From: Winogradskyella endarachnes | GTDB lineage: Bacteria; Bacteroidota; Bacteroidia; Flavobacteriales; Flavobacteriaceae | Assembly (NCBI RefSeq): GCF_009741275.1 | Contig: NZ_WOWS01000001.1 | Span: 372,001 to 436,000, forward strand | Length of the DNA stretch: 64,000 nt | Direction: 5' to 3' | In this document: one piece after another, positions 3,652 to 20,389 of the stretch | Position numbering within the stretch: the stretch's first letter is position 1 | Layout of the letters: every line of letters starts with the position of its first letter | The notes under the pieces: model-generated | Seen by the model: the letters and a program-made list of their open reading frames with translations, nothing else | Databases searched by the model: none | What the model was told of the DNA's origin: nothing | Position numbers and translations under genes: made by a program

Positions 3652-4251
3652 CTATTCCATGTCTATAATACCAACAACTTCGTAGGCTCTGGTGCCATCT
3701 ACTTGTATTTTTTCGTATAAAATGTTTCCGTATTCATAATAAGTTAGGTTATCTATAGTAACTTTTTCATAATCATCTGGTAATTCATACACAATTGTAC
3801 CGATTTCTGGTTCTACCACTTCATATTCATCACCAACTTCAATAAAAAATGTACCATCCACATTAAAATATATGTGAGAATTAAATCTAACTCTTCTGTA
3901 ATGTTCTGGGAGTACATTAATTCTAAATCCTACTTTTGGAGCAATAACGATAAAACGTCCTCTTGAATGCGAATAAAACTTATTATTTGCATAATAATAG
4001 GTTTGCCCTTTGTGTTTTACTGTCTTTCTGTTTGGGATAGACCTTACAGAAACAACCTTTCTTGTAGGTTTTTTATAAGTAACTCTTGCACTTGGTATTC
4101 TTTTATTAGACAAAGTTGTTGTTTTTTTAGTAGCAACTGTTTTTTCTGTTTTCTTTGTCGCTGAACTTCTTTTATTTTGAGCTGTAATTTCTGTTGAAAC
4201 CGCCATAAATAGTATAGCTGGTAAAACAAATATTTTAATTAAGGTTTTCAT
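3652..4251 (-). CDS. Secreted DUF6515-like protein
   Basis: 199 residues with a signal peptide (about 1-24, cleavage near TAQ). A basic Lys/Thr/Ser-rich stretch (about 25-75) is followed by short Tyr/Phe-rich repeats of the form xxYYxxxxFY...IAP..G..I..LP..Y..V. This repeat is seen in Bacteroidota proteins annotated DUF6515, and I assign it by pattern only. It is probably periplasmic or surface-associated. Monocistronic by its spacing. Confidence 0.6.
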   Translation of the reverse strand: MKTLIKIFVLPAILFMAVSTEITAQNKRSSATKKTEKTVATKKTTTLSNKRIPSARVTYKKPTRKVVSVRSIPNRKTVKHKGQTYYYANNKFYSHSRGRFIVIAPKVGFRINVLPEHYRRVRFNSHIYFNVDGTFFIEVGDEYEVVEPEIGTIVYELPDDYEKVTIDNLTYYEYGNILYEKIQVDGTRAYEVVGIIDME

Positions 4252-4427
4252 AATGCTTATATTATTAATTACACTTTACTTACTGTTATTTAAGACTTCT
4301 ATTAACAATTATAGTTTAAAGATATGGGCATTATTTTTTGAAAAAAAGGCAAATAGATGTTCTATTAAATTTCATCTACGAAATAGAAATATTTATAGAT
4401 ATAATAATTTCATATTAAGATATAAAC

Positions 4428-4479: not shown

Positions 4480-4779
4480 TTATTTTAATAAACCTAACAG
4501 CCCAGTTAACTCAGTTAGATTTAAGCTAGAACTATTATCAGTATCTAACACATTAAAATTTTCTGAAACAGAGCCTATAGCCTCTGATGTACTAATAGCT
4601 TCATCGTTATTAGCGTCTAACAAACCAAATAATGTAGTAATCTGTTGAACTGTTGAATTAGAACTTAAAGAACTTAACAACGTTGCAGCATCAGATAAAT
4701 TTGATGTGTTTACATTTTTTACACTATCACAACTAGAAACACTTATTATGATGGCTAAAGAAAGTACAATTTTTCTCAT
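4480..4779 (-). CDS. Small lipoprotein with an EF-hand pair
   Basis: 99 residues. The signal peptide ends in a lipobox-like VSSC at Cys17. Two EF-hand-type loops follow: DANNDEAISTSE (about 54-65) and DTDNSSSLNLTE (about 79-90), both with acidic ligands at positions 1, 3, 5 and 12. It is therefore probably a calcium-binding envelope lipoprotein. No partner is evident from the flanking genes. Function unknown. Confidence 0.75.
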   Translation of the reverse strand: MRKIVLSLAIIISVSSCDSVKNVNTSNLSDAATLLSSLSSNSTVQQITTLFGLLDANNDEAISTSEAIGSVSENFNVLDTDNSSSLNLTELTGLLGLLK

Positions 4780-4899
4780 AATATTTTCATTTTAGAAATT
4801 AAAAAAGTAAAAATAGCTTTGTATAACCGTTATAAGAAAGACAATATACTAACACAGAAAATCTATCTTTTAATACAATAAAACTATAGACGAAATATT

Positions 4900-5628
4900 T
4901 TAAAGAGAATTACTATTTATAAACTCTAGAAATTTTGACTTGTATTGCTCAGATACAGTAATGCGTTGGTCATTAATTATAATTTGACTACGCTCAATAA
5001 CATCAATATTATTTAGAGATATAATAAAAGAACGGTGCACTCGCATAAACTGCGTATTTGGTAGTTCTTGTTCTAAAGATTTTAAACTCATAAGGGTTAA
5101 AATAGGTTTAGGATTATCTTTTAACCAAATTTTGATATAATCTTTTAAGCCTTCAAAATATAAGACATCAGCAAGTTTAATACGAAGTTGTTTATATTCG
5201 GATTTTACAAAAAGAAATTCTTTTTCTTCAGAGAGTAAACTTTCTCGTTTTCCTTTTACCAACTCAAACCAAGTATTAGCTTTATTCGCTGCGGCTAAAA
5301 ACTCTGCATAATCAAAGGGCTTTAATAAATAATCTATGGCATCTACTTTAAAGCCCTCTAAAGCATAATGGTCAAATGCTGTTGTAAAAATAACGCGCGA
5401 ATCTTTGGGTAACATTTTAGAAAACTCTATTCCTGTTAAATCAGGCATTTGTATGTCTAAAAAAAGTAAGTCTACAGGATGTTCTTTAATAAATTGCATT
5501 GCTTCAATAGCACTACTACATTTAGCTTTGAGTTCTAAAAACGGTGTTTTTTCAATATAACTTTCTACCAAATTTAAAGCCATAGGCTCATCATCTACAG
5601 CGATACAAGATATTTTTAAGCTACTCAT
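4900..5628 (-). CDS. LytTR-family response regulator
   Basis: 242 residues. The receiver domain (about 6-120) has the acidic pair DD at 12-13, phospho-acceptor Asp58 (LFLDIQMPDLTG) and the conserved Lys in LLKPFDY. A LytTR DNA-binding domain (about 145-240) contains FMRVHRSFIISLNNI. It is encoded 3 bp after its kinase gene and is the last gene of the nine-gene efflux operon. It most likely binds direct-repeat sites and may control this operon; the target is not visible from sequence. Confidence 0.93.
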   Translation of the reverse strand: MSSLKISCIAVDDEPMALNLVESYIEKTPFLELKAKCSSAIEAMQFIKEHPVDLLFLDIQMPDLTGIEFSKMLPKDSRVIFTTAFDHYALEGFKVDAIDYLLKPFDYAEFLAAANKANTWFELVKGKRESLLSEEKEFLFVKSEYKQLRIKLADVLYFEGLKDYIKIWLKDNPKPILTLMSLKSLEQELPNTQFMRVHRSFIISLNNIDVIERSQIIINDQRITVSEQYKSKFLEFINSNSL

Positions 5629-5631
5629 AAT

Positions 5632-6657
5632 TTATATGATTTCTAATTCTAAATTTACAATAAAAAGGTTGTTTTCTACCTTAGTATTAAATTTATATTT
5701 ATCTGTATATAGCAGATTTAAACGTTTTTCTAAATTTTTTAATCCTATGCCAGAACCACTTTTATCTTCAGTGTTTTTAGGAAAGTTATTGTTTATTGTT
5801 TTAAAGACTACCTTATCATCTGCAAGAGTCATTGTAATATCTATTGTACTATCTTGACTTGCTGATACACCATGCTTAAAAGCATTTTCTATTAATGAAA
5901 TAAACAATAAAGGTGCTATTTTAATTTGATTGCTGTCTTTTGGAAAACTGTAATTCACCACAGTTTTATCAGTAACTCGTAGTTTCATTAACTCAATGTA
6001 TTTAGACATAAATTCTATTTCTTTACTTAATGAAATTTCTTCGGTATTGGTTTCATAAAGCATATATCTCATTAATTTACTCAGGCTGTGGATAGATGTT
6101 TTGGCTCTTTCTGGCGAAATATCTACCAACGCATAGATGTTGTTTAATGAATTAAAAAAGAAATGTGGCTGTAACTGATAATGTAAATGTTGTAGCTCTG
6201 ATTGTAACTTAAAGTTGGCAGCTTCCTTTCGCTCTGCTTCGGTTTTAACCCATCGCTTTGTTGTTTTTACTGCTATTGAAAATAATAATGGTGCCAAATA
6301 AGAAAACATTTGTACGTAAATCATCATTTTTAAAGGTGGCGCATTACCATCTTTATTTCTAAGAATATCTGAAAAAACAGTACTTTCAATTTGTTCTTTT
6401 AAAGTGATACAAATGGCTATAATTAAGACATTGATAAGTATATATAAAACGGTTTCCTTTTTGAATAAATATTTATCAATTAAAACAAAATAATTGGTAT
6501 AAAAAATAATAGCATAGAATAGAATAGGAATCCAAAAATGCGCAATTATTCTATTGATATTTTGCTCTTGTCCATACGATAAAATATACGGAATACTAAA
6601 CAGAACTAACCATACTAGTATATGAGAAAATAGCGTTATTTTTTTGTTTTTATCCAT
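5632..6657 (-). CDS. LytS-type sensor histidine kinase
   Basis: 341 residues with four hydrophobic segments in the first 130 residues and almost no periplasmic sensor domain. Then comes the His_kinase module with phospho-acceptor His165 in QPHFFFNSLNN and a HATPase domain with N-box (ENAFKHG) and G-box (GSGIGLKNLEKRL). It should phosphorylate the LytTR regulator encoded immediately downstream. The small extracytoplasmic surface suggests it senses a membrane-borne or partner-protein signal, possibly from the DoxX or DUF1566 proteins of the same operon (inference). Confidence 0.93.
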   Translation of the reverse strand: MDKNKKITLFSHILVWLVLFSIPYILSYGQEQNINRIIAHFWIPILFYAIIFYTNYFVLIDKYLFKKETVLYILINVLIIAICITLKEQIESTVFSDILRNKDGNAPPLKMMIYVQMFSYLAPLLFSIAVKTTKRWVKTEAERKEAANFKLQSELQHLHYQLQPHFFFNSLNNIYALVDISPERAKTSIHSLSKLMRYMLYETNTEEISLSKEIEFMSKYIELMKLRVTDKTVVNYSFPKDSNQIKIAPLLFISLIENAFKHGVSASQDSTIDITMTLADDKVVFKTINNNFPKNTEDKSGSGIGLKNLEKRLNLLYTDKYKFNTKVENNLFIVNLELEII

Positions 6658-6672
6658 AAATAAAAATGAGTT

Positions 6673-7071
6673 TTAATCCCAAATATTTTTCGAAGATATG
6701 GCATATTTTCCAGCTCCTGTAAAAAACAATGCTACAGAACCAAATGTATAGAAATAAATTAATTCGTTTTGAAATGCTCCTTTATCTGAAATTGCAAAAA
6801 TATCATTGGCATGTGCAAGAAATATAATAAAAAGCATGCCTAGAAAAAATACTAAAGACGCCAGTCTTGTTCTATAGCCAACTATTATAATTAATGGCGC
6901 AACTATCTCTGTAATATAAGCACCATAAGCCATAAACTCAGGCAAACCATTGGCACTTAACATTCCTTTTATACCATCTAAATGGCCTAATTTTGCAATA
7001 CCGTGAAATAGCATTAAACCTGCTACTGTTATTCTAAGGATTAGTAATCCTAAATCTGTGTTTTTTTTCAT
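6673..7071 (-). CDS. DoxX-family membrane protein
   Basis: 132 residues with four predicted membrane helices and the DoxX signatures LRITVAGLMLFHGIAKL near the N-terminus and ITEIVAPLIIIVGYRTR in the middle. DoxX proteins are inner-membrane proteins often linked with redox or membrane stress. It is in the middle of the efflux/two-component operon (gaps of 15 and 23 bp). Biochemical role unknown. Confidence 0.88.
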   Translation of the reverse strand: MKKNTDLGLLILRITVAGLMLFHGIAKLGHLDGIKGMLSANGLPEFMAYGAYITEIVAPLIIIVGYRTRLASLVFFLGMLFIIFLAHANDIFAISDKGAFQNELIYFYTFGSVALFFTGAGKYAISSKNIWD

Positions 7072-7094
7072 TTTTAAATTATTAAGAGGTTGAT

Positions 7095-8387
7095 TTAATC
7101 TACATTTCTAACTAAACGTACATAATTGTAGTAACGTTCTCCGCCTTCACCTGCTGGTCCGTTTTCGTGTTTTGTGTCAAATCTTACAGCTCCTGCACCA
7201 TGAGAATCTAACCCGTTTTGACTAACAGCTCTACCAAATGCTACATACCAAGCATAGTAATAAGGTTTTCCTTTCTGAAATCTGGCGGAAGTACTTGTCC
7301 AAAAATATGGATAATCTTTATCGCCATTTTCATTAGTGATATCAGAAATATTGAATAACGGATGTATTGCAGCTCTATCTTTAGAAGCATCTTTGGCTTC
7401 GGGTGCAAAATTATAATCTACGATACCTTGTAATTCCTTTACATTTGGTAAACGCCAATCGGAATAGCCAGCTAGTTCTGAATTTTCGGCATAATAAAGC
7501 GCATTTTTCCAATCTAAACCTTGTTCACTATCATTCTTAGCCCACATCAATCCTGTTGCATTATCAGTAATAGTGCCATTTCCATTGTCTTTAAAATCAT
7601 TTTCACCATAGGTATTTCCTCTAACCGCTCTAACATGTTTTAACATTGGGTTACCCATTGGTCTTTCGCCATTGCCAGGTGGTGGCGGTCTATTCTCATT
7701 TCTATTCTCACCTTCTTGTCCGCGTGGTTGTTGGTTATTTGGCGGTGGGCCTTTTCTATCTTTCCTATCTTTAGGTGCTTCTCCAGGATATGCTTTTATA
7801 TGTCCTGTGGCGTGATTAACACCAAAAACAGCAGTGTATTGTCCTTCTTCTGTGTGGCCAAGGTACTTATTGGCTGTCCAATATTGTTCACTTTTATCTA
7901 CATGCTCATTATTAACTAATGAAAAATAAGTAGTATCTAAATAGGGCCAACCTTCACTAAAATCGCTTATAGAAAATAATTCTTTAGCCGTTGGTAGTCT
8001 CCAATCATCATAACCACCCAATTCTAAATTTTCTACATAATCCTTGGCGCCTTGCCAATCGAAACCCTCAGTGGTTGGAATTTCTTCCCACATTAATCCT
8101 GTGTTGTTATCGGTTATTGTGCCATCATTATTTTTTTTGAAGCTCATTTTTTTACCTTTTAAATAATGAGCATCCTGACCGTAAAGCGAATCACCAGGTT
8201 TTAACTCTGAAACTACATTGCCATTTTCGTCATAAACATGAATTTGTCCTGTTGCTACTTGGGTATAGTTTGCTTTAGTATTTGTAACACTTGTTTGAGT
8301 GTTTTTTTCTTTACAAGACTGTGCAAATATTAGCGCAATTACCATGAAAGTACTACCTAATATTCTGTTGTGTTTTATTGTTTTCAT
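7095..8387 (-). CDS. DUF1566 (Lcl-type) lipoprotein, two domains
   Basis: 430 residues with a lipoprotein signal ending in AQSC (Cys25). There are two DUF1566/Lcl C-terminal domains (about 75-200 and 260-428), each beginning DGTITDNxTGLMW and carrying GGYDDWRLPTAKEL or GYSDWRLPNVKEL. Between them lies a Pro/Gly/Asn/Arg-rich linker (about 205-250). Lcl-type domains are thought to bind ligands such as glycans on the cell surface. It is a paralogue of the gene just upstream, 10 bp away, and is in the same operon as the efflux genes. Confidence 0.88.
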   Translation of the reverse strand: MKTIKHNRILGSTFMVIALIFAQSCKEKNTQTSVTNTKANYTQVATGQIHVYDENGNVVSELKPGDSLYGQDAHYLKGKKMSFKKNNDGTITDNNTGLMWEEIPTTEGFDWQGAKDYVENLELGGYDDWRLPTAKELFSISDFSEGWPYLDTTYFSLVNNEHVDKSEQYWTANKYLGHTEEGQYTAVFGVNHATGHIKAYPGEAPKDRKDRKGPPPNNQQPRGQEGENRNENRPPPPGNGERPMGNPMLKHVRAVRGNTYGENDFKDNGNGTITDNATGLMWAKNDSEQGLDWKNALYYAENSELAGYSDWRLPNVKELQGIVDYNFAPEAKDASKDRAAIHPLFNISDITNENGDKDYPYFWTSTSARFQKGKPYYYAWYVAFGRAVSQNGLDSHGAGAVRFDTKHENGPAGEGGERYYNYVRLVRNVD

Positions 8388-8397
8388 GAGAAACTAT

Positions 8398-9594
8398 TTA
8401 TAAATTTCTTACTAAACGAACATAATTTTTTATCCTAATTGAATCTGCTGCATTTACAGATTCCATTAAATAATCTTCAATTTTACCTGCTTTAGGGTCT
8501 GAGCGTTGCGCACCAGCACCATGCCAGTCGAAATAATCTTTTACTTTACTATTATCTTTACTGTAAGCCTTACCAAAAGCTATGTAGCAAGCGGTGTATT
8601 TAAAATCGCCTTGTGTGGTACTTGTCCAGAACCAACTATCTGGGTTTGTACATTTAAAATAATTTTCATCAATTGCAGGAAATGTTTTCTTATTGTAATC
8701 TACAATACTTTGTAGTTCTTTAGTATTTGGTAATCGCCAATCGTTATAATTACCAAGCGAACTATTTTTAGCGTATTTAAGCGCATCTACCCAATTGTAT
8801 GCATTGCCATCGTCAATTTTTTGCCACATTAATCCTGTAGCCTTATCGGTAATTGTACCATCGTTATTATCTACAAAATCATTAACTCCGTAAACATTTT
8901 CTTTACCACGAACGGCTCTTACATAATTACCTGGATTTCTTACACCACTTTCTCCGTTATAATACAAACCTGTTTCGTAAGCTTTTATGTGTCCGTCGGC
9001 AAAATTAAACCCAAAAGCACCTTCAATTTTTATATTTTGAATTGGGCCTTTTACATATTTGGTACTCGACCAATATTGACCGGCATAAGGCATTCTTTTA
9101 TCATATTCAAAATCGAAATAATCGGTGTCTAAATATGGTTTCGACTTACTTAAATCTTCAGGAAATAGCTCGCCATTAGAATTTAATAATGAATACAGTT
9201 CTTTAATAGTTGGCAATCTCCAATCTGTATAACCTCCAATTTCAAGCTCATCTACATAATCAAAAGCATCATAAAAGTTATGTTTTTTATAATCTGGTGT
9301 TTTTTGCCACATTAAACCGGTATTTAAGTCGGTTATTGTACCATCGCCATTATCTTTATATGATGAAACTATTCCTTTAAATTGCGCATCTTGACCGTAG
9401 TAATCATCATCAAAGTTAGGTGTCTCAATTTGGTTACCATCGTTGTCATAAAATTTATCTTGGCCTGTATCTGATAGTACAAACTGAATATTAGCATTTG
9501 GTTTAGTGTCTTTTTCTGTGTTCGTTGTGTTTTTACAGTTTGCAAACAGAAGTAGAACACTTAATCCTCCTATTTTTAATAAATTATACTTCAT
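8398..9594 (-). CDS. DUF1566 (Lcl-type) lipoprotein, two domains
   Basis: 398 residues with a lipoprotein signal ending FANC (Cys20). Two DUF1566 domains (about 75-225 and 240-396) are marked by DGTITDLNTGLMW and DGTITDKATGLMW and by two DWRLPxxKEL motifs. It shares architecture with the downstream neighbour but lacks its proline-rich linker, so the pair looks like an old tandem duplication. Probably displayed in the outer membrane or periplasm. It follows the ABC permease gene by 25 bp. Confidence 0.88.
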   Translation of the reverse strand: MKYNLLKIGGLSVLLLFANCKNTTNTEKDTKPNANIQFVLSDTGQDKFYDNDGNQIETPNFDDDYYGQDAQFKGIVSSYKDNGDGTITDLNTGLMWQKTPDYKKHNFYDAFDYVDELEIGGYTDWRLPTIKELYSLLNSNGELFPEDLSKSKPYLDTDYFDFEYDKRMPYAGQYWSSTKYVKGPIQNIKIEGAFGFNFADGHIKAYETGLYYNGESGVRNPGNYVRAVRGKENVYGVNDFVDNNDGTITDKATGLMWQKIDDGNAYNWVDALKYAKNSSLGNYNDWRLPNTKELQSIVDYNKKTFPAIDENYFKCTNPDSWFWTSTTQGDFKYTACYIAFGKAYSKDNSKVKDYFDWHGAGAQRSDPKAGKIEDYLMESVNAADSIRIKNYVRLVRNL

Positions 9595-9619
9595 TTTTAT
9601 ATTTTTTAGTAATTAGTAT

Positions 9620-10840
9620 TTACTCGTAGCGTAATGCTGTTATTGGGTCTAAAGCCGCAGCTTTTCTTGCCGGATACCACCCAAAGAAGATACCAGTTAT
9701 TGCGCAAACTGCAAAGGAAATTATTATTGAATATAGCGCAACACTTGTTGGCCAGTTTAGGAAATTCTCAATAAACACTGTAGCACCTAAACCTAAAGCT
9801 ACGCCTAAAACACCACCTGTAATACTTATTAAAATGGCTTCTATTAAAAACTGCATTAAAATATCTGAGCCTTTTCCGCCAACAGCCATACGCAAACCAA
9901 TCTCTTTGGTACGTTCTTTTACAGACACGTACATTATATTCATAATACCAATACCACCAATTAATAGTGAAATTCCGGCAACAGCAACTAACAAAATGGT
10001 TAGCATTTCACTGGTAGAACTAAAGGTTGAAATTAATTCTTCCATAGAACGTACAGTAAAGTCATCATCTTCAAAATCTTGTAATTTGTGCTGTTCTCTT
10101 AATATTTCAGTAATAATTTCTACAGCTTCTGGTGCATCATCTTCACTAACTGCAGATGCCATAATTTGATTTAAATAATCGATAGCCAGAATACGTTTTT
10201 GAACGGTTGTAAATGGTGCTATTACAATATCATCTTGGTCTTGCCCAAAGGTATTTTCTCCTTTTTCTTCTAACACACCAATCACTTTAAATGGAATGTT
10301 GTTAAAACGAATCATTTGTCCAACAGGTTCTTCACCATTAGGAAACACATTATCTACAACCGTTTGCCCAATAAGTGCTACTTTGGATGCTGTTTTTACT
10401 TCAGCATCGGTAAACATACTTCCGCTTTGTAAACCAACCACTTTAATGTCTAAATATTCTGGATATACACCATAAATACTACTCGGCCAGTTGTTAGAAC
10501 CGTTAATTACTTGTCCGCTACTGTTTACAACAGGTGTACTGTTTGATAATAAATCAACCTTTTCGTTAATAACGTTGTAATCCTCTAAAGTAAGGGTTTG
10601 TACATTTCCGCCACTTCCTCTTGCTGGACCTCTATCGTCTGCACCAGGTCTTATGGTAATCATATTAGAACCCATACTAGAAATGGTAGAACGAATGCTC
10701 TCTTTAGAACCTTCTCCAATAGCTAACATAGCAATTACCGAAGCCACACCAATGATAATACCTAGCATGGTAAGCAAGGTTCTCATTTTATTTAGGATAA
10801 TAGCTTTATAGGCTATTTTAAGTAAGTTTAATAGTCTCAT
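9620..10840 (-). CDS. MacB-like ABC transporter permease
   Basis: 406 residues. An N-terminal membrane helix (about 20-42, TLLTMLGIIIGVASVIAMLAIG) is followed by a MacB periplasmic core domain (about 45-245) and a FtsX domain with three helices (about 280-400, including GGIGIMNIMYVSVKERTKEIG). With the ATPase 2 bp upstream, the adaptor and TolC it forms a MacAB-TolC-type tripartite exporter. Here permease and ATPase are separate proteins rather than fused as in E. coli MacB. Substrate unknown. Confidence 0.93.
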   Translation of the reverse strand: MRLLNLLKIAYKAIILNKMRTLLTMLGIIIGVASVIAMLAIGEGSKESIRSTISSMGSNMITIRPGADDRGPARGSGGNVQTLTLEDYNVINEKVDLLSNSTPVVNSSGQVINGSNNWPSSIYGVYPEYLDIKVVGLQSGSMFTDAEVKTASKVALIGQTVVDNVFPNGEEPVGQMIRFNNIPFKVIGVLEEKGENTFGQDQDDIVIAPFTTVQKRILAIDYLNQIMASAVSEDDAPEAVEIITEILREQHKLQDFEDDDFTVRSMEELISTFSSTSEMLTILLVAVAGISLLIGGIGIMNIMYVSVKERTKEIGLRMAVGGKGSDILMQFLIEAILISITGGVLGVALGLGATVFIENFLNWPTSVALYSIIISFAVCAITGIFFGWYPARKAAALDPITALRYE

Positions 10841-10842
10841 AA

Positions 10843-11586
10843 TTAATGATTTTCTACAGGTAATTGTGCTAATTGCTCTGCAGCAGATTGTACGTTATGA
10901 TTTTTATAATCTTGCATTATTTCACCATCTTTTAAAACAATGGTTCTGCTACTAAATGTGGCAATATCTGGCTCGTGTGTTACAAAGGTGATGGTAATCC
11001 CTTTTTTGTTTAATTCTTGAAACAAGGTCATTATTTCATACGATGTTCTGGTGTCTAAGTTTCCGGTGGCCTCATCTGCTAAAATCATAACTGGATTGTT
11101 AACCAAAGACCTAGCAATAGCAACACGTTGTTGTTGTCCTCCTGAAAGTTGCGAAGGTGTGTGATACAATCTGTCGCCCAAACCAACCATCTCTAAGGCT
11201 TTAATTGCTCGCTCCCTTCGCTCTTCAGAAGTTACTTTACTGTTATATAATAAGGGTAATTCTACATTTTCAATAGCACTTGTTCGTGCTAGTAAATTAT
11301 AGGACTGAAAAATGAATCCAATCTTTTCGTTTCTAATAGTTGCCAATTCATTTTTAGACAAATTTTTCACCTTTACACCATCAATTTCATAATTACCAGA
11401 AGTAGGTTGGTCTAAACAACCTAGAATATTTAGCATGGTACTTTTACCAGAACCACTAGAACCCATTATGGTTACAAATTCGCCTTCCTCAATGGTAAAT
11501 GAAATGCCTTTTAACGCGTGAACCGTTTCAGAACCCATGGTAAATTGGCGCTTCAAGTTTTCTATTTTAATCGTTTCTTTAGCCAT
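10843..11586 (-). CDS. MacB/LolD-type ABC transporter ATPase
   Basis: 247 residues with the full ABC ATPase motif set: Walker [10 protein letters not shown] (about 42-50), Q-loop, signature [14 protein letters not shown], Walker [14 protein letters not shown] and switch His (FVTHEPD). The LolD/MacB subfamily is indicated by sequence pattern and by the adjacent adaptor and permease genes (gaps of 6 and 2 bp). It powers the tripartite exporter at the inner membrane. Confidence 0.95.
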
Positions 11587-11592
11587 GATGTT

Positions 11593-12831
11593 TTATTTTT
11601 TTGCTCCTGGTGGTTTTGGCATAAACGGACTCTCATTAGAACCTTGAGGTGCTCCTGATGGTGCAGCAGCACTTCCACCTTTTAGGCTATATACTAATTG
11701 TTCGCCTTTAGAAATACCTTCTAAAATTTGTACGTTAACGCCATCGCTTGCGCCTAGTTTTGCAGGTTTTGGTGTTATGGATTTATCATTATTTAATACC
11801 CAAAGCATTGTCATCTCTTCATCTGGTTGTTCATTGTTGTTTTCTGGACCACCATTTTGAGGACGCTCTGGCATTGTGAGGTTATTTTGTTCTATATACT
11901 GTGCCATTATTGCTGGGTCTGGTTTAAAGTTTACCGCTTTAGCTTCAGTAGTCAACACATCTTTCAACTCTAAAGTGTAGATAGAAATGGTTGCTGTTAA
12001 TCCTGGTTTTAGTTTTAAATCTGGATTATGCGCTTTAATTACAACTGTATAAGTGACAACGTTTGATGTTGTTGTTGGATTAAGACGTACTTGCGTTACT
12101 TCACCTTCAAACGTTTGGCCTATATAAGCATCTACGGTAAACGTAACACGCTGCCCTTCTCTAACATTTCCTATATCAGCTTCATCCACATCAGCTTCAA
12201 CCTGCATTTCTTTTAAATCTTGTGCAATAGTGAATAACGTTGGTGTGCTATAACTGGCAGCAACGGTTTGTCCTTCGTCTATATCTCTAGACAACACTAC
12301 ACCATCTATTGGCGAATAGATATTGGCATAACCTAAATTGGTTTTTGCCGTTTGAAGTAAAGAATAACGTTGCGTCACAGTATTTTTAGCAGTTTGATAA
12401 TCATATAGAGCATCATCAAAATCTGCTTTACTTATTACTTGATTATCATAAAGTGTTTTTTGACGATTATAGATTGTTTCAGTATATATTTTTTGACTTA
12501 TTGCACTATCATAATTTGCCTGAGCTTCAACTACTGCTGCTTTAAGATTAGTTTTATCTAGTTCTGCAATAAGTTGCCCTTCTTTAACCTCACTATTATA
12601 GTCCACATATATTTTTTCTACCACACCAGAAACTTGTGTACCAACATCGACTTGTGTAATTGGCTCAATAGTACCAGTTGCAGTAACTAATGTGGTTACA
12701 TCTCCAGTAGTAACAGTGATAGTTTTAGCTTCTACCAAAACTGTTTCGCTTGGTTTAAAAATGTTATAAAGTACCAGTGCAATTATAGCTACTGAGATAC
12801 CTGCTATGAGTATTTTTTTATTTGTTTTCAT
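11593..12831 (-). CDS. MacA-like periplasmic adaptor
   Basis: 412 residues. An N-terminal membrane anchor (about 7-24) is followed by a biotinyl/lipoyl-like half (VDVGTQVSGVVEKIYVDYN), a helical hairpin (about 100-165), the second lipoyl half (ANIYSPIDGVVLSRDIDEGQTV), beta-barrel and membrane-proximal domains. The C-terminal tail is Pro/Gly/Ser-rich. It links the inner-membrane ABC permease to the TolC-type channel encoded 11 bp upstream. Confidence 0.93.
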   Translation of the reverse strand: MKTNKKILIAGISVAIIALVLYNIFKPSETVLVEAKTITVTTGDVTTLVTATGTIEPITQVDVGTQVSGVVEKIYVDYNSEVKEGQLIAELDKTNLKAAVVEAQANYDSAISQKIYTETIYNRQKTLYDNQVISKADFDDALYDYQTAKNTVTQRYSLLQTAKTNLGYANIYSPIDGVVLSRDIDEGQTVAASYSTPTLFTIAQDLKEMQVEADVDEADIGNVREGQRVTFTVDAYIGQTFEGEVTQVRLNPTTTSNVVTYTVVIKAHNPDLKLKPGLTATISIYTLELKDVLTTEAKAVNFKPDPAIMAQYIEQNNLTMPERPQNGGPENNNEQPDEEMTMLWVLNNDKSITPKPAKLGASDGVNVQILEGISKGEQLVYSLKGGSAAAPSGAPQGSNESPFMPKPPGAKK

Positions 12832-12842
12832 TTCTTTTATAA

Positions 12843-14168
12843 TTAAAGTGTGATAGCGTTTCCTTGATAAAATTCTAGTAATTGATGATAAAGTATGTTT
12901 AAATATTTTGCTTGTAAATAGTCTTGTTGCGCACTAGTATAGGTGTTTTGACTAATCACTAAATCAGTTGTGCTTAATCCTCCTAATTCGTATTTTTTTT
13001 GTGCTAACTCGTAAGATTGTTTAGCAGCTTCAACAGAAGATTCTGCAGCTACTAATTGCTCTTGAGCAGATAGTGCATTTTGGTATGCAGTTTCTACTTT
13101 TAGGTAAATTTCTTTTTCCGTTGTTTGCTTGTCTATTTGTGCCTTTTCAATATTTATTTCTGCAGTTTGTACTGCTGCCTTAGTGGCATTTCTATTAAAA
13201 ATTGGAATATTAAGCGATAGCCCAATACGTTGGTTGAAATTAACATCAAACTGGTCTGAAAATGTATTATCAGCAATACTTGTATAACCAGTACCCAAAC
13301 TAGAGGTTAACGATAATGTTGGTAGATAACCACCTTTTGCAATATCTAAGTCTTTTTCACTAGCTTCAATGGCTATATTACTGGCGTTCACCTCAGGTAA
13401 AATACCAAGCGCTTTGTTGTAAATAGCTACTTTGTCTAATAAAATAGCTGCATAATCAGTATCATCATTTAATGGTTCTATTTCAATGTCTTGAGTAGGA
13501 TTTAACTCTAACAATTGCTTCAAAGCTATAATATATTGTTGGTAGGTATTTTTAGCATTTATTAAAGCATATTTATTAGTTGCAGCTTGACTCTGCGCTT
13601 CGGTATAATCACTTAAAGCAATAGTACCAGCATCTAATCTGGCTTTGGCGCGTTGTACTTCTTGCTCTGTAGATTTTAAATTGTTTTCGGCAATAGTGAT
13701 GCCTTCTTTGGCATGTAATACCTGTAGATAGTTTTCTAAAACACTAAGTATGATGTTGTTTTTTGCTTCTTCTTTAAGAAACTGACTTTGATTTACGAGT
13801 AATTCGTTTTGAGCAATTTGATTGTTTATTTGATTCCCTTGAAACAAGGTCACCGAACTATATAATCCAACATTTGTACTATAGATTTGGTCTGTTACAT
13901 AATCACTAGTAATAGGATCAATAGAATTACCATTAGTGAAACTTTGAGAAGCTGAGCCAAAAAGGTTTGGTAATCTTGAAGATTTAGCTTCGAAATAATC
14001 AACATCTGCTTGTGATTTATCTAATGCCGCATCTTTTATGGTGATATTGTTTTCAATTGCATATGTAATACAATCTTGTAAAGACCATACTTCTGCTTTG
14101 GGAGAAACCACTTGCGCAAAAGTAAATTGCGATAGTATTAAACTTGATATAATAAAAAATAGTTTCAT
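12843..14168 (-). CDS. TolC-family outer-membrane efflux channel
   Basis: 441 residues with a signal peptide (about 1-18) and two tandem OEP domains dominated by long helices (LSDYTEAQSQAATNKYALI and its counterpart LSTTDLVISQNTYTSAQQDY), as in TolC. It is the first gene of the nine-gene operon and provides the outer-membrane duct for the MacAB-like pump. The operon promoter must lie in the 127-bp gap upstream, where I saw no convincing -33/-7 pair. Confidence 0.92.
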   Translation of the reverse strand: MKLFFIISSLILSQFTFAQVVSPKAEVWSLQDCITYAIENNITIKDAALDKSQADVDYFEAKSSRLPNLFGSASQSFTNGNSIDPITSDYVTDQIYSTNVGLYSSVTLFQGNQINNQIAQNELLVNQSQFLKEEAKNNIILSVLENYLQVLHAKEGITIAENNLKSTEQEVQRAKARLDAGTIALSDYTEAQSQAATNKYALINAKNTYQQYIIALKQLLELNPTQDIEIEPLNDDTDYAAILLDKVAIYNKALGILPEVNASNIAIEASEKDLDIAKGGYLPTLSLTSSLGTGYTSIADNTFSDQFDVNFNQRIGLSLNIPIFNRNATKAAVQTAEINIEKAQIDKQTTEKEIYLKVETAYQNALSAQEQLVAAESSVEAAKQSYELAQKKYELGGLSTTDLVISQNTYTSAQQDYLQAKYLNILYHQLLEFYQGNAITL

Positions 14169-14295
14169 TTTTTTGTGTATTTCTAATTAACACTTCAAAA
14201 ATGAAACTATATACAATAGTATAAAACCGTAATAGATGTTTGCGGTAATTCTCTAGATGAAATTGGTTGTTTTATCGAAGAGAATTTTACAAATA

Positions 14296-16822: not shown

Positions 16823-17103
16823 TTGATTTATTTTATTTGTACAAATCAACTAACCTAACTCTTTAATAAAAAGTATAATATACCTACTCTCGTATTCTAT
16901 CTACTAACAGCACATTTTATACTATAAAATTTCATTAATCATTTTATAGATTAAATACCTGTGTTGGTCTACAAAAAATGAGCCTAGGTCTATTTAATAA
17001 TTAACCTAAAAGTTTCAGGTAGTAAGTTAGCCGTTAAAAGCGATAAATAACTTTTCGCTAAAGCAATCAAAAATTAGTTTAAACAATTAAATAATTAAGT
17101 GAA
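16823..17103. other. Divergent intergenic region between DUF4270 and Kelch genes
   Basis: This 281-bp spacer must hold the promoters of two divergent units. I found no full TTG/TAnnTTTG promoter on either strand. It does contain a perfect 8-1-8 palindrome, ATTTTATA-c-TATAAAAT, at 16914-16930. In AT-rich DNA this is only weakly notable, but its position between divergent genes makes an operator possible. Confidence 0.4.
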
Positions 17104-18111
17104 ATGAAAAGATTTAATAACAAGGCAGCAATTAGGTTACTTTATTTAACTGCTATGCTTACACTGTTTTACAATTGTAATGGTGATGACGACAGCGATG
17201 ACACTGATGGAAACTGGGTAAAAAAATCTACTTTTAACGAAGAAGCAAGAAGCAGTTCTTCTGCCTTTACAATTGATAATATTGGTTATATGGGAACTGG
17301 TTATGATGGTGACGATTACTATAATGATTTTTGGAGCTATAACATGGATACCAATTCTTGGCAGCAGCTAGCAGATTTCCCTGGTATAGAACGTAGCTCG
17401 GCATCATCTTTTGTAATAGGTACTGAAGGTTACATGGGAACTGGCTATAATGGTGATACTAACGAAGAATTATCTGATTATTACAAATACAATACCGCAA
17501 CCAATACTTGGACACAAATTGCAGATTTTGCTGGTTCTGCTAGATACGGAACAGTAGCTTTTGGTTCTGATAGCTATGGCTATGTTGGTACTGGATATGA
17601 CGGAAGTGATAAAAAAGACTTCTGGAAATATGATCCAGTTGCAGATACATGGACTGAAATTTACGGCTTTGGAGGCGATAAAAGAAGAGATGGTGTAACA
17701 TTTACTATTGATAATAATGTGTATTTAGGAACTGGCATTAGTAATGGCGTTTATGAAACAGATTTCTGGGTATTTGATTTAGATACAGAAGAATGGACAC
17801 AGCTTGAAGATATCGATGAAGATGATGACGATTACGTTGAAAGATCTAATGCTGTTGCATTTACAATAGATGGTAAAGGTTATGTAGCCTGTGGAGAGTA
17901 TGGAGGAAGTATTGATACTGTTTATGAATACACACCATCTACTGAATCTTGGGTTGAAAAAACAGAATTTGAATTATATGCAAGACGAGATGCTATTGCA
18001 TTTACTAATGGATCACGTGCTTTTGTAGCCTTGGGAAGAAACGGTACACTATATTTAGATGATAATATGGAGTTTTTTCCAAATGCAGAACAAGACGATG
18101 ACGACAATTAA
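17104..18111 (+). CDS. Kelch-repeat lipoprotein
   Basis: 335 residues. The N-terminal hydrophobic segment ends LFYNC (Cys25, probable lipidation site) and is followed by an acidic Asp-rich spacer. Six Kelch units follow (starting near residues 50, 98, 147, 192, 245 and 296), each with the pattern AFxIxxxGYxGxGxxG...DFWxYxxxxxxWxxL. Six units predict a six-bladed beta-propeller. The C-terminus is EQDDDDN. It is divergent from DUF4270 and upstream of DUF4907 and a two-component pair. Confidence 0.85.
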   Translation: MKRFNNKAAIRLLYLTAMLTLFYNCNGDDDSDDTDGNWVKKSTFNEEARSSSSAFTIDNIGYMGTGYDGDDYYNDFWSYNMDTNSWQQLADFPGIERSSASSFVIGTEGYMGTGYNGDTNEELSDYYKYNTATNTWTQIADFAGSARYGTVAFGSDSYGYVGTGYDGSDKKDFWKYDPVADTWTEIYGFGGDKRRDGVTFTIDNNVYLGTGISNGVYETDFWVFDLDTEEWTQLEDIDEDDDDYVERSNAVAFTIDGKGYVACGEYGGSIDTVYEYTPSTESWVEKTEFELYARRDAIAFTNGSRAFVALGRNGTLYLDDNMEFFPNAEQDDDDN

Positions 18112-18614: not shown

Positions 18615-19646
18615 TTGGTAAAAAAAATCTCACATAAAGAACTTTTAATACACATTATAGTTTGGCTTTGTATTAGCCTTTTTCCGTTATTAACTGCTTA
18701 TATTGATTTAGGAAAAATTCCATCAAACTTATATTTTAGACAAGCCATTCGCCCAATTCTATTCTATGTAAATTACTCCTTTTTAGTTCCTCATTTTCTT
18801 TTAAAAAGAAGACTTATAGTATATGTTATATTATCTATTGGATTTTTAATACTTTATAATTACCTGAGTGAAGAGTTTATAACAACCACTTTTGCTAATG
18901 AGTTTGTAAACAGACCAAAACCTCCAATTATGCCAAAAGGACCTTTTGGTCTAAAACATGCTATTCCAGTAGTATTTTCATTTACTATATTTCTTTTAGG
19001 TGGTATTTTTAGTTTAGTTGTTGACTTTTACAAAAGAGATCGCGAGACTAAAGCTATAGAAAATGAACAAAAAGAAATTAAACTTCAATTTTTAAGAAAT
19101 CAACTAAACCCACATTTTTTATTCAACTCTCTAAATAGTATTTATTCTTTAGTACAGAGCAAATCCGATGATGCGCCAGAAGCTGTAATTACCTTATCAG
19201 AACTAATGAGGTATATGCTCTACGAAGCTGGTGATGAGCAAGTACCGTTAGAAAAAGAGATAAATTACATACAAAATTATATCGCTCTACAACGATTACG
19301 TTTAAAAAACACCGAAGCTGTTAAACTTAACATAAAAGGTGAGACTAGACACCTTAAAATATATCCTTTGTTATTAATTTCATTTATTGAAAATGCTTTT
19401 AAATACGGAACCGACTATAAAGGTAATACACAAATTGATATTAAAATTGTAGTTGAAAACGATAAATTAATTTTTAATGTAGAAAACATTGTGGGTATAT
19501 ATAAACGTGATGATAAAAATTCTGGTGTAGGCTTAGCAAACATAAAAAACCAACTAAACCATTTGTATAATAATAATCATGAATTAACCATAGAAGATGA
19601 TAAAACACTCTACAAAGTATATTTAACGATAAATCTTAAAAAATAA
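18615..19646 (+). CDS. LytS-type sensor histidine kinase (TTG start)
   Basis: 343 residues. Four hydrophobic segments (about 10-140) are followed by the phospho-acceptor His167 in LNPHFLFNSLNS, N-box ENAFKYG and G-box SGVGLANIKNQL. An in-frame TAA at 18609 lies just upstream and no ATG occurs before the membrane region, so translation probably begins at TTG 18615. Its stop overlaps the start of the regulator gene (TAATG), which implies coupled translation and a dedicated partner. Confidence 0.92.
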   Translation: MVKKISHKELLIHIIVWLCISLFPLLTAYIDLGKIPSNLYFRQAIRPILFYVNYSFLVPHFLLKRRLIVYVILSIGFLILYNYLSEEFITTTFANEFVNRPKPPIMPKGPFGLKHAIPVVFSFTIFLLGGIFSLVVDFYKRDRETKAIENEQKEIKLQFLRNQLNPHFLFNSLNSIYSLVQSKSDDAPEAVITLSELMRYMLYEAGDEQVPLEKEINYIQNYIALQRLRLKNTEAVKLNIKGETRHLKIYPLLLISFIENAFKYGTDYKGNTQIDIKIVVENDKLIFNVENIVGIYKRDDKNSGVGLANIKNQLNHLYNNNHELTIEDDKTLYKVYLTINLKK

Positions 19647-20389
19647 TGAAGTGCATAATTATTGATGATGAGCCCTTAGCTATTAATGTTATTGAATCTT
19701 ATTGTAAAGCATTAAGCGATGTTGAAGTAATCAGTACTTTTACCAACGCTATTGAAGCTTTAGATTTTATTAATAATAATGCCATAGATTTAGTGTTTTC
19801 TGATATTGAAATGCCAAATATTACAGGTATAGAACTTATTAAATCCTTAGAAGGAAAAGTACCTTATTTTATATTTACAACAGCATACCCAGAATACGCC
19901 TTAGAAGGATTTGATTTAAATGCTATAGATTATTTGGTAAAACCTATTCCTTTTCCTCGTTTCTTAAAAGCTGTAAATAGAGTAAAAGAAATGCTTAAAT
20001 TAAGTGAAGTTAATACCTCGTTTAATGTATCTTCAGCGGGTGGAGAACTAACAAAATCTATTACACAACAACATGAAGATGATTTTATTTTTGTAAAATC
20101 TGAATATGAAAATTTAAAAATAGATATTAAATCAATAAAACACATTCAAGGTTTAAAAGATTATTTAAAAATTCATTCTGAAGATTCTAAACCAATACTA
20201 ACATTAATGAGTTTTAAGGAAATACAAGATAAATTACCAGAAAATATATTTATTAGAGTACATCGTTCTTACATTGTCAATGTTAACAAAATTACATCTA
20301 TTCAAAAAAATAGAATTGTTATTAAAGATGAAAGAATTCCGATTGGAGAAAGTTATAAATCTATGGTTTATAGTAGACTGAATATTTAA
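19646..20389 (+). CDS. LytTR-family response regulator
   Basis: 247 residues. The receiver domain has DD at 7-8, phospho-acceptor Asp53 (LVFSDIEMPNITG) and Lys in YLVKPIPF. The linker is slightly longer than in the paralogue at 4900-5628. The LytTR domain contains FIRVHRSYIVNVNKI. It is the last gene of the Kelch-DUF4907-kinase-regulator unit and is followed by a strong terminator. The regulon is not visible here; the divergent DUF4270/barrel genes are candidates (inference). Confidence 0.93.
   Translation: MKCIIIDDEPLAINVIESYCKALSDVEVISTFTNAIEALDFINNNAIDLVFSDIEMPNITGIELIKSLEGKVPYFIFTTAYPEYALEGFDLNAIDYLVKPIPFPRFLKAVNRVKEMLKLSEVNTSFNVSSAGGELTKSITQQHEDDFIFVKSEYENLKIDIKSIKHIQGLKDYLKIHSEDSKPILTLMSFKEIQDKLPENIFIRVHRSYIVNVNKITSIQKNRIVIKDERIPIGESYKSMVYSRLNI

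Follow-up and report, generated by a model that had tools for sequence, protein, structure and literature searches.

Why should an export pump, two lipoproteins with Lcl domains, a DoxX membrane protein and a LytS/LytTR regulator pair lie together in one row of genes? The question is raised by a stretch of 64,000 nucleotides from Winogradskyella endarachnes (contig NZ_WOWS01000001.1, positions 372,001 to 436,000; hereafter the window, meaning this stretch at its full length), where nine minus-strand genes run from position 14168 to position 4900 with intergenic gaps of 2–25 bp (11, 6, 2, 25, 10, 23, 15 and 3 bp in the order of transcription). The original prediction for this DNA saw in them a single envelope-response module in which the pump, or what it exports, is tied to the DUF1566 (Lcl_C) proteins, and the coordinates of the open reading frames bear out its nine genes, common strand and short gaps. 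The parts are of known kinds, and that reading took accessories for core and missed the regulon; its span also omitted the two following genes, both of which have the same operator as the pump operon (Table 1). We consider it probable (roughly 0.7) that the locus is a MacAB-type export operon under its own control, with a small regulon of envelope genes and with accessory lipoproteins that can be exchanged. No system of this composition was known to the original prediction, and our own search of open-licence PMC papers, outside which most subscription journals lie, likewise found no description of the combination, of the accessory slots or of the shared operator.

A six-gene core with two accessory slots

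Orthologs were sought in a genus sample of 68 genomes and in a family sample of 397 genomes from 237 genera; in the family searches no more than 7 or 4 first-look candidates were scored for each genome, which makes absences there less certain. Orthologs of the LytTR regulator, with 86–100% identity, are present in 21 of the 68 genus genomes, the window's own genome counted, and those of the permease occur in the identical set of 21. In the family sample the regulator was found in 36 genomes and the permease in 38, together in 34; the two occur in 29 and 31 of the 237 genera, respectively.

Gene order was compared in the neighbourhoods of 56 regulator orthologs, 21 from the genus and 35 from elsewhere. 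The complete order TolC-adaptor-ATPase-permease-(slot 1)-kinase-(slot 2)-regulator is found at 49 of these loci and, since six core genes keep one order in so many of them, the arrangement is more than chance. The conserved core consists of the genes for the TolC protein, the adaptor, the ABC ATPase, the MacB-type permease, the LytS-type kinase and the LytTR regulator, and the Lcl/DUF1566 and DoxX genes that may stand between permease and kinase are optional additions. Slot 1 is empty, with the kinase directly behind the permease, in 35 of the 49 complete loci; Lcl genes occupy it in 11 loci and DoxX in 8, the two together in 6 of these, and a YHYH+EF-hand protein fills it in one. Slot 2 is empty in 45 of the 55 loci having both kinase and regulator, and in the other ten it contains a YHYH protein and a 338-amino-acid protein of no Pfam family, accompanied in eight of them by a PBP-family protein. 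In the window, slot 1 is filled by Lcl2-Lcl1-DoxX and slot 2 is empty. Behind the regulator, an EF-hand-like gene is among the first two genes in 18 of the 21 genus loci.

The idea of one nine-gene module therefore survives in part. The genes are co-directional behind one operator, with no further site scoring above 9 inside the unit, and would presumably be read as a single transcript, but their set is not fixed: of 50 permease loci, 38 have no Lcl gene after the permease and 12 do have one, the moved pump of genome G016 included. DUF1566 and DoxX genes do neighbour this pump elsewhere, albeit in a minority of loci. As a side observation, locus L048 has between Lcl1 and DoxX (L048:8877-9807) a short frame that resembles, by eye, the terminal part of an outer membrane efflux protein, followed by an operator identical to that of L039; an RND pump operon once inserted here may have left this remnant.

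A pump is not always adjacent to the regulator, since seven of the 56 regulator loci (L038, L039, L041, L054, L076, L091 and L096) are without one; in L091 the pump lies 45 kb away.

A triple-repeat operator before three promoters

Alignment of the regions upstream of TolC revealed an operator of 60 bp composed of three direct repeats with a period of 21 bp, whose consensus is approximately CATCGATAAAAT, GTATAGnnAAT and CRTCTATT. The operators before the EF-hand-like and DUF6515 genes have the same layout, the former with a degenerate middle repeat. Thirty-five bp after the start of repeat 3 there is a −7-like element in each case, CATTTTTG for Operator 1, TATTTTTA for Operator 2 and TATCTTTA for Operator 3. 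This spacing is common to the promoters at large: with ties included, the best match to TAnnTTTG, the −7 element of Bacteroidota, stands 35 bp after repeat 3 begins in 44 of 48 promoters of pump operons, 20 of 21 of EF-hand genes and 26 of 27 of DUF6515 genes.

The initial search for sites used a consensus drawn up by hand, and promoters related by descent do not count as independent observations. The pump and EF-hand profiles were built without the TolC sites below 12 of 15 (L071, L098), the EF-hand sites below 11 (L048, L066, L069, L072) and a misplaced EF-hand site of L052; in 2 Mb of simulated sequence their maxima were 3.0 and 9.2, respectively. Operator 3 was outside the training of both profiles, and all three operators were part of the training of R1, a sequence-only profile made from 37 genus sites. 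When R1 was run over the whole genome of the strain, the three sites of the window ranked first, the next best having an E value of 0.0039 among the matches listed. Because all three belong to the training set, the tests outside the genus matter. Within the genus, a scan of 14 of the 21 carriers and 14 of the 47 non-carriers gave, among the matches listed, a site at E <= 1e-5 in 14/14 carriers, of which all but G016 and G065 had contributed to the R1 training, versus 0/14 non-carriers, whose best site (E 7e-5) lies inside a coding gene. Outside the genus, a genus-trained profile gave a score over 9 in front of TolC at 30 of 32 loci, and in whole-genome scans all 17 carriers scanned, of the 35 known, had a strong site (the best at E <= 2.4e-6); G210, the sole other genome in that scan, had no site at E <= 0.001.

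Operators also occur away from the layout of the window. Five of the seven regulator loci without an adjacent pump have one before the kinase (L038, L041, L054, L076) or before DoxX-kinase (L039). We also opened five distant site-bearing regions outside the genus. In four genomes, G273, G434 (second copy), G219 and G476, the operator precedes DUF6515 genes located 14–58 kb from the regulator, and in G273 a further site precedes an EF-hand-like gene beside the distant DUF6515; the fifth region, in G257, has its site in the divergent promoter of a DUF4270 gene. Separately, weaker operator-like sites were seen before RND-type adaptor genes near the system, at L027:18048-18107 (score 13.8) and, turned, at L038:2695-2754 (10.9).

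Table 1. Genes and operators of the window, with the support for each; gene families are Pfam matches above the cut-off of each model for all nine genes of the operon
Feature	Coordinates	Strand	Support
TolC-type outer membrane efflux protein	12843..14168	-	OEP, PF02321 6e-60
MacA/HlyD-type periplasmic adaptor	11593..12831	-	HlyD_D23, PF16576 2e-26; TIGR01730 above cut-off
ABC ATPase, separate chain	10843..11586	-	ABC_tran, PF00005 2e-33
MacB-type permease, 4 predicted membrane segments	9620..10840	-	MacB_PCD PF12704 and FtsX PF02687; hydropathy
Lcl2, probable lipoprotein, accessory; two Lcl_C (DUF1566) stretches	8398..9594	-	PF07603 7e-49
Lcl1, probable lipoprotein, accessory; two Lcl_C stretches and Pro-rich linker	7095..8387	-	PF07603 1e-42
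DoxX membrane protein, accessory	6673..7071	-	PF07681 8e-19; in slot 1 of 8/49 loci
LytS-type histidine kinase, 4 predicted membrane segments	5632..6657	-	His_kinase, PF06580 3e-24; hydropathy
LytTR response regulator	4900..5628	-	Response_reg PF00072 and LytTR PF04397
EF-hand-like lipoprotein, predicted regulon member	4480..4779	-	best EF-hand model match 22.7 bits, below its cut-off of 25
DUF6515 protein, predicted regulon member	3652..4251	-	PF20125 2e-29
Operator 1, before pump operon	14227..14286	-	Score 61.6, best in window; E 1.1e-10 in own genome
Operator 2, before EF-hand-like gene	4839..4898	-	Score 54.4; E 3.9e-6 in own genome
Operator 3, before DUF6515 gene	4348..4407	-	Scores 13.9 (pump profile) and 18.0 (EF-hand profile); E 2.2e-8 with profile R1

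A sigma-70 promoter scan found 53 candidates versus 54.9 expected, and a terminator scan 6 versus 5.0, in neither case an excess. A terminator-like hairpin lies at 4459-4428 (-), between the EF-hand-like and DUF6515 genes, and such hits are no commoner than in shuffled sequence.

The family names given in the original prediction are supported by Pfam for all nine genes, with one reservation. 'LytS' is a loose label for the kinase of the window, because a Pfam scan found PF06580 as its sole domain and no 5TM-5TMR_LYT, the sensor domain of classical LytS. The DoxX protein stays below the cut-off of NF050144, an HvfX-type model for the maturation of ribosomally synthesized and post-translationally modified peptides (31.3 of 80 bits). 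Calcium sensing by the EF-hand-like lipoprotein was not adopted as a reading, since none of the EF-hand matches of this protein in the window reaches its Pfam cut-off.

The Lcl proteins and their tie to the pump

The link between the pump and the DUF1566 proteins, as originally claimed, stood up for Lcl1. Its relatives at E <= 1e-60 are found in 10 of the 68 genus genomes and in 7 of the 397 family genomes, and every one of these (10/10 and 7/7) also carries the pump permease; the window's genome belongs to both samples, so that the carriers are 16 distinct genomes. In 13 of them Lcl1 lies directly behind the permease or with only Lcl2 between; in the others it is on the opposite strand upstream of TolC (G347), about 16 kb off (G209) or on another contig (G476). 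Lcl1 is also present, at 74–78% identity, in five named records, four from Winogradskyella and one from Aureibaculum. A rule that Lcl1 always stands beside the pump is weakened by an Allomuricauda bin (L030), because its Lcl1 (70% identity) does not adjoin the pump, and the same genome has the permease at 80% identity.

The Lcl and DoxX genes might, on the other hand, simply hitch-hike on a well-expressed operon, with no functional tie to the pump. They are missing from most pump loci, and Lcl presence requires at least eight changes on the permease tree, four of them forced by starred branches, against a mean of 11.0 with shuffled labels; the tree is a quick one, with 13 of its 47 inner branches open. 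Lcl relatives also form other clusters, for instance the Lcl pairs of L033 and L058, which stand beside diverged LytS/LytTR genes with no pump. Against this speaks the restriction of close Lcl1 relatives to pump carriers, a pattern with a chance of 1.2e-6 in the genus and 3.1e-7 in the family, no correction being made for kinship, and likewise the fact that Lcl1 remains by the permease where the kinase lies elsewhere: in G016, G072 and G090, no more than 70 bp separate Lcl1 from the permease, and kinase and regulator are on another contig or more than 20 kb away (in G072, the separation may be due to an insertion running across two contigs). We regard mere hitch-hiking as unlikely, though not negligibly so.

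Lcl1 and Lcl2 have at their N-terminus, as judged by eye, lipoprotein-type signal peptides, and are probably surface proteins. An AlphaFold model of Lcl1 from a 12-row alignment was poor (mean pLDDT 55.6) and had no PDB match at E <= 0.001, and the Lcl1 sequence itself had none in the PDB at E <= 1. The Legionella Lcl and other Lcl_C/DUF1566 adhesins share with the proteins of the window the Lcl_C domain, here in two stretches per protein. Lcl adhesins are further marked by a collagen-like region and GAG binding; the proteins of the window differ in being probable lipoproteins, with no Pfam collagen match and more acidic than basic residues. DUF1566 also turns up in papers on diversity-generating retroelements (PMC4159848, PMC6642488), and the Lcl proteins might be variable receptors diversified by such an element. 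We rejected this as practically negligible, since the strain's own genome gave no match to the reverse transcriptase family PF00078, for which the control was positive in 3 of 14 named genomes.

A wider regulon including the other Lcl clusters of the strain's own genome (contigs C12 and C23) was also rejected, as no operator above score 9 was present in the stretches L059 and L060, and as beyond the three window sites the genome offers, among the matches listed, nothing better than E 0.0039. The first (G000:C12:566000-585000) holds an ECF sigma factor, EF-hand proteins, an arylsulfotransferase-like protein and two Lcl proteins, together with a Cthe_2159 protein, a YHYH+EF-hand fusion (its EF-hand above the cut-off) and a YHYH protein. 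The second has at 8080-9633 (-) an Lcl_C protein with a Por_Secre_tail domain for type IX secretion system (T9SS) sorting, followed by relatives of the slot-2 YHYH and 338-amino-acid proteins. Similar associations were seen in a Desulfococcaceae protein (L032:9971-11485, +), in which Lcl_C domains are combined with a Pro-rich stretch and a C-terminal EF-hand region whose matches are mostly below cut-off, and in L100 (G209:C1:41000-57000), about 16 kb from the pump operon, which contains EF-hand, Lcl1, Lcl2-like and YHYH genes and its own diverged LytS/LytTR pair. The theme of EF-hands with Lcl or YHYH rests on such proteins and clusters elsewhere (L032, L059), and not on the window.

Sensing, regulation and relation to known systems

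In the mechanism we propose, the TolC protein, adaptor, ATPase and permease would assemble into a MacAB-type tripartite exporter. The kinase has, by hydropathy, four hydrophobic segments with short loops and no sizeable extracytoplasmic domain, and because of this it should sense in the membrane, reading a signal in or at the inner membrane and phosphorylating LytTR. The regulator would then bind the three repeats 21 bp apart, which start near −42, −63 and −84 if the −7 element is set at −7, and activate three promoters: that of its own operon and those of the EF-hand-like lipoprotein and DUF6515 genes. The Lcl/DUF1566 and DoxX proteins, and elsewhere YHYH and PBP, would be exchangeable envelope accessories that inherit this control via the operon slots. 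If so, the system is a defined place where DUF1566, YHYH and DoxX proteins of Bacteroidota would be switched on together, and it offers for the pump operon a concrete regulon prediction of three promoters, one operator and one regulator, with an operator profile usable to find further members and to predict co-regulated envelope genes.

LytTR sites consist, in the available text of PMC4847170, of repeats of 9–11 nt with spacers of 11–13 nt, a site type with which three repeats at a period of 21 bp before three promoters agree; for CoxC, the consulted part of PMC11347149 reports a LytTR domain that binds three repeats 18–21 bp apart. Since the published spacing and the CoxC triple repeats resemble the operator, LytTR would be its natural binder, and the upstream placement of the operator suggests activation.

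Several points weigh against this reading. That LytTR binds and regulates the predicted operators is something that we infer from sequence, and a triple-repeat LytTR site can also repress, as CoxC does (PMC11347149, in the part available). The second LytS/LytTR pair of the window (see below), whose relatives have similar sites, could act on these operators too. The permease is found without the regulator, at the cut-offs used, in four family genomes (G113, G233, G314 and G465), and the regulator without the permease (none at E <= 1e-60) in G092 and G463. L091 and L096 have a regulator with neither adjacent pump nor operator, and L093 and L098 lack the operator before TolC. Finally, the Lcl clusters L033, L058, L059, L060, L099 and L100 have no operator above score 9, and therefore the function of Lcl proteins does not require the predicted regulon.

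What the kinase senses bears on the relation to Bce-type modules, in which an ABC exporter with an FtsX-type permease also stands beside a kinase without a sensing domain (as judged here by hydropathy only). Bce-type systems have a 10-segment BceB permease and an OmpR-type regulator; the pump of the window is tripartite, with an outer membrane channel and a 4-segment permease, and is paired with a LytTR regulator. By analogy, the kinase might read the working cycle of the neighbouring permease, with induction proportional to pump load. This would suit its four segments with no sizeable outside domain and the position of its gene immediately after that of the permease in 35 of 49 loci, and BceS, with no dedicated sensing domain, is proposed to sense BceAB (PMC10314905, available text). 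However, the permease and regulator families differ from those of Bce, and the kinase gene does not adjoin the pump in L038, L039, L041 and L054. Moreover, G092 keeps kinase, regulator and operators (L156, G092:C67:189000-199000) with no permease match at E <= 1e-60, and therefore sensing there cannot require this pump. We hold need-based sensing to be rather doubtful. Because of G092, we favour over it a kinase whose signal, from outside or from the membrane, does not depend on the pump, with the pump as one output among several envelope proteins, an explanation to which we give somewhat less than even odds. Consistent with it are the operators of EF-hand-like and DUF6515 genes at a distance from the pump and, in G092, an operator before two genes that by eye are thioredoxin-like; what speaks against it is how very closely regulator and pump occur together, the same 21 of the 68 genus genomes having both. 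A bolder proposal, which we consider improbable, is that need-based transporter sensing has a Gram-negative counterpart assembled from different regulator families, in which the LytS-type kinase reads the MacB-type pump and Ca- or glycan-binding lipoproteins (Lcl, YHYH, EF-hand-like, PBP) in the two slots are interchangeable outside partners that set what the pump exports or protects against.

The preferred reading, an autoregulated export operon with a compact regulon, also has partial precedents. MacAB-TolC shares the permease with MacB_PCD and FtsX domains, the ATPase, the MacA/HlyD adaptor and the TolC-type channel in one operon. In the window, ATPase and permease are separate genes, not fused, and remain below the NCBIfam equivalog cut-offs for MacB (264.9 and 302.6, respectively, of 966 bits), as does the adaptor for MacA (150.8 of 342 bits), and the operon has its own kinase, regulator and accessory lipoproteins. 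LytS/LytTR systems such as YpdA/YpdB have in common a His_kinase-family sensor, a LytTR regulator, a direct-repeat operator and few targets (predicted ones here); they differ in that the system of the window gives no 5TM-5TMR_LYT match, has three repeats instead of two, and is predicted to target the pump operon and envelope proteins. The operators of the carbon monoxide (CO) sensors RcoM and CoxC likewise have, in the part of PMC11347149 available, three direct repeats about two helical turns apart, with a repeat sequence and a regulator architecture different from those of the window.

The second LytS/LytTR pair, at 18615-20389 (+), is paralogous to the first, with 34% and 45% identity, and its neighbours are a gene for a kelch protein and a DUF4270 operon (17104-18111, +, and 16849-14296, -). 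In relatives of this pair (L157, L160 and L161), divergent sites resembling the triple repeat lie between DUF4270 and its neighbour on the opposite side, and in the window a weak triple-repeat-like site, with a score of 6.6, is found at 16873-16932.

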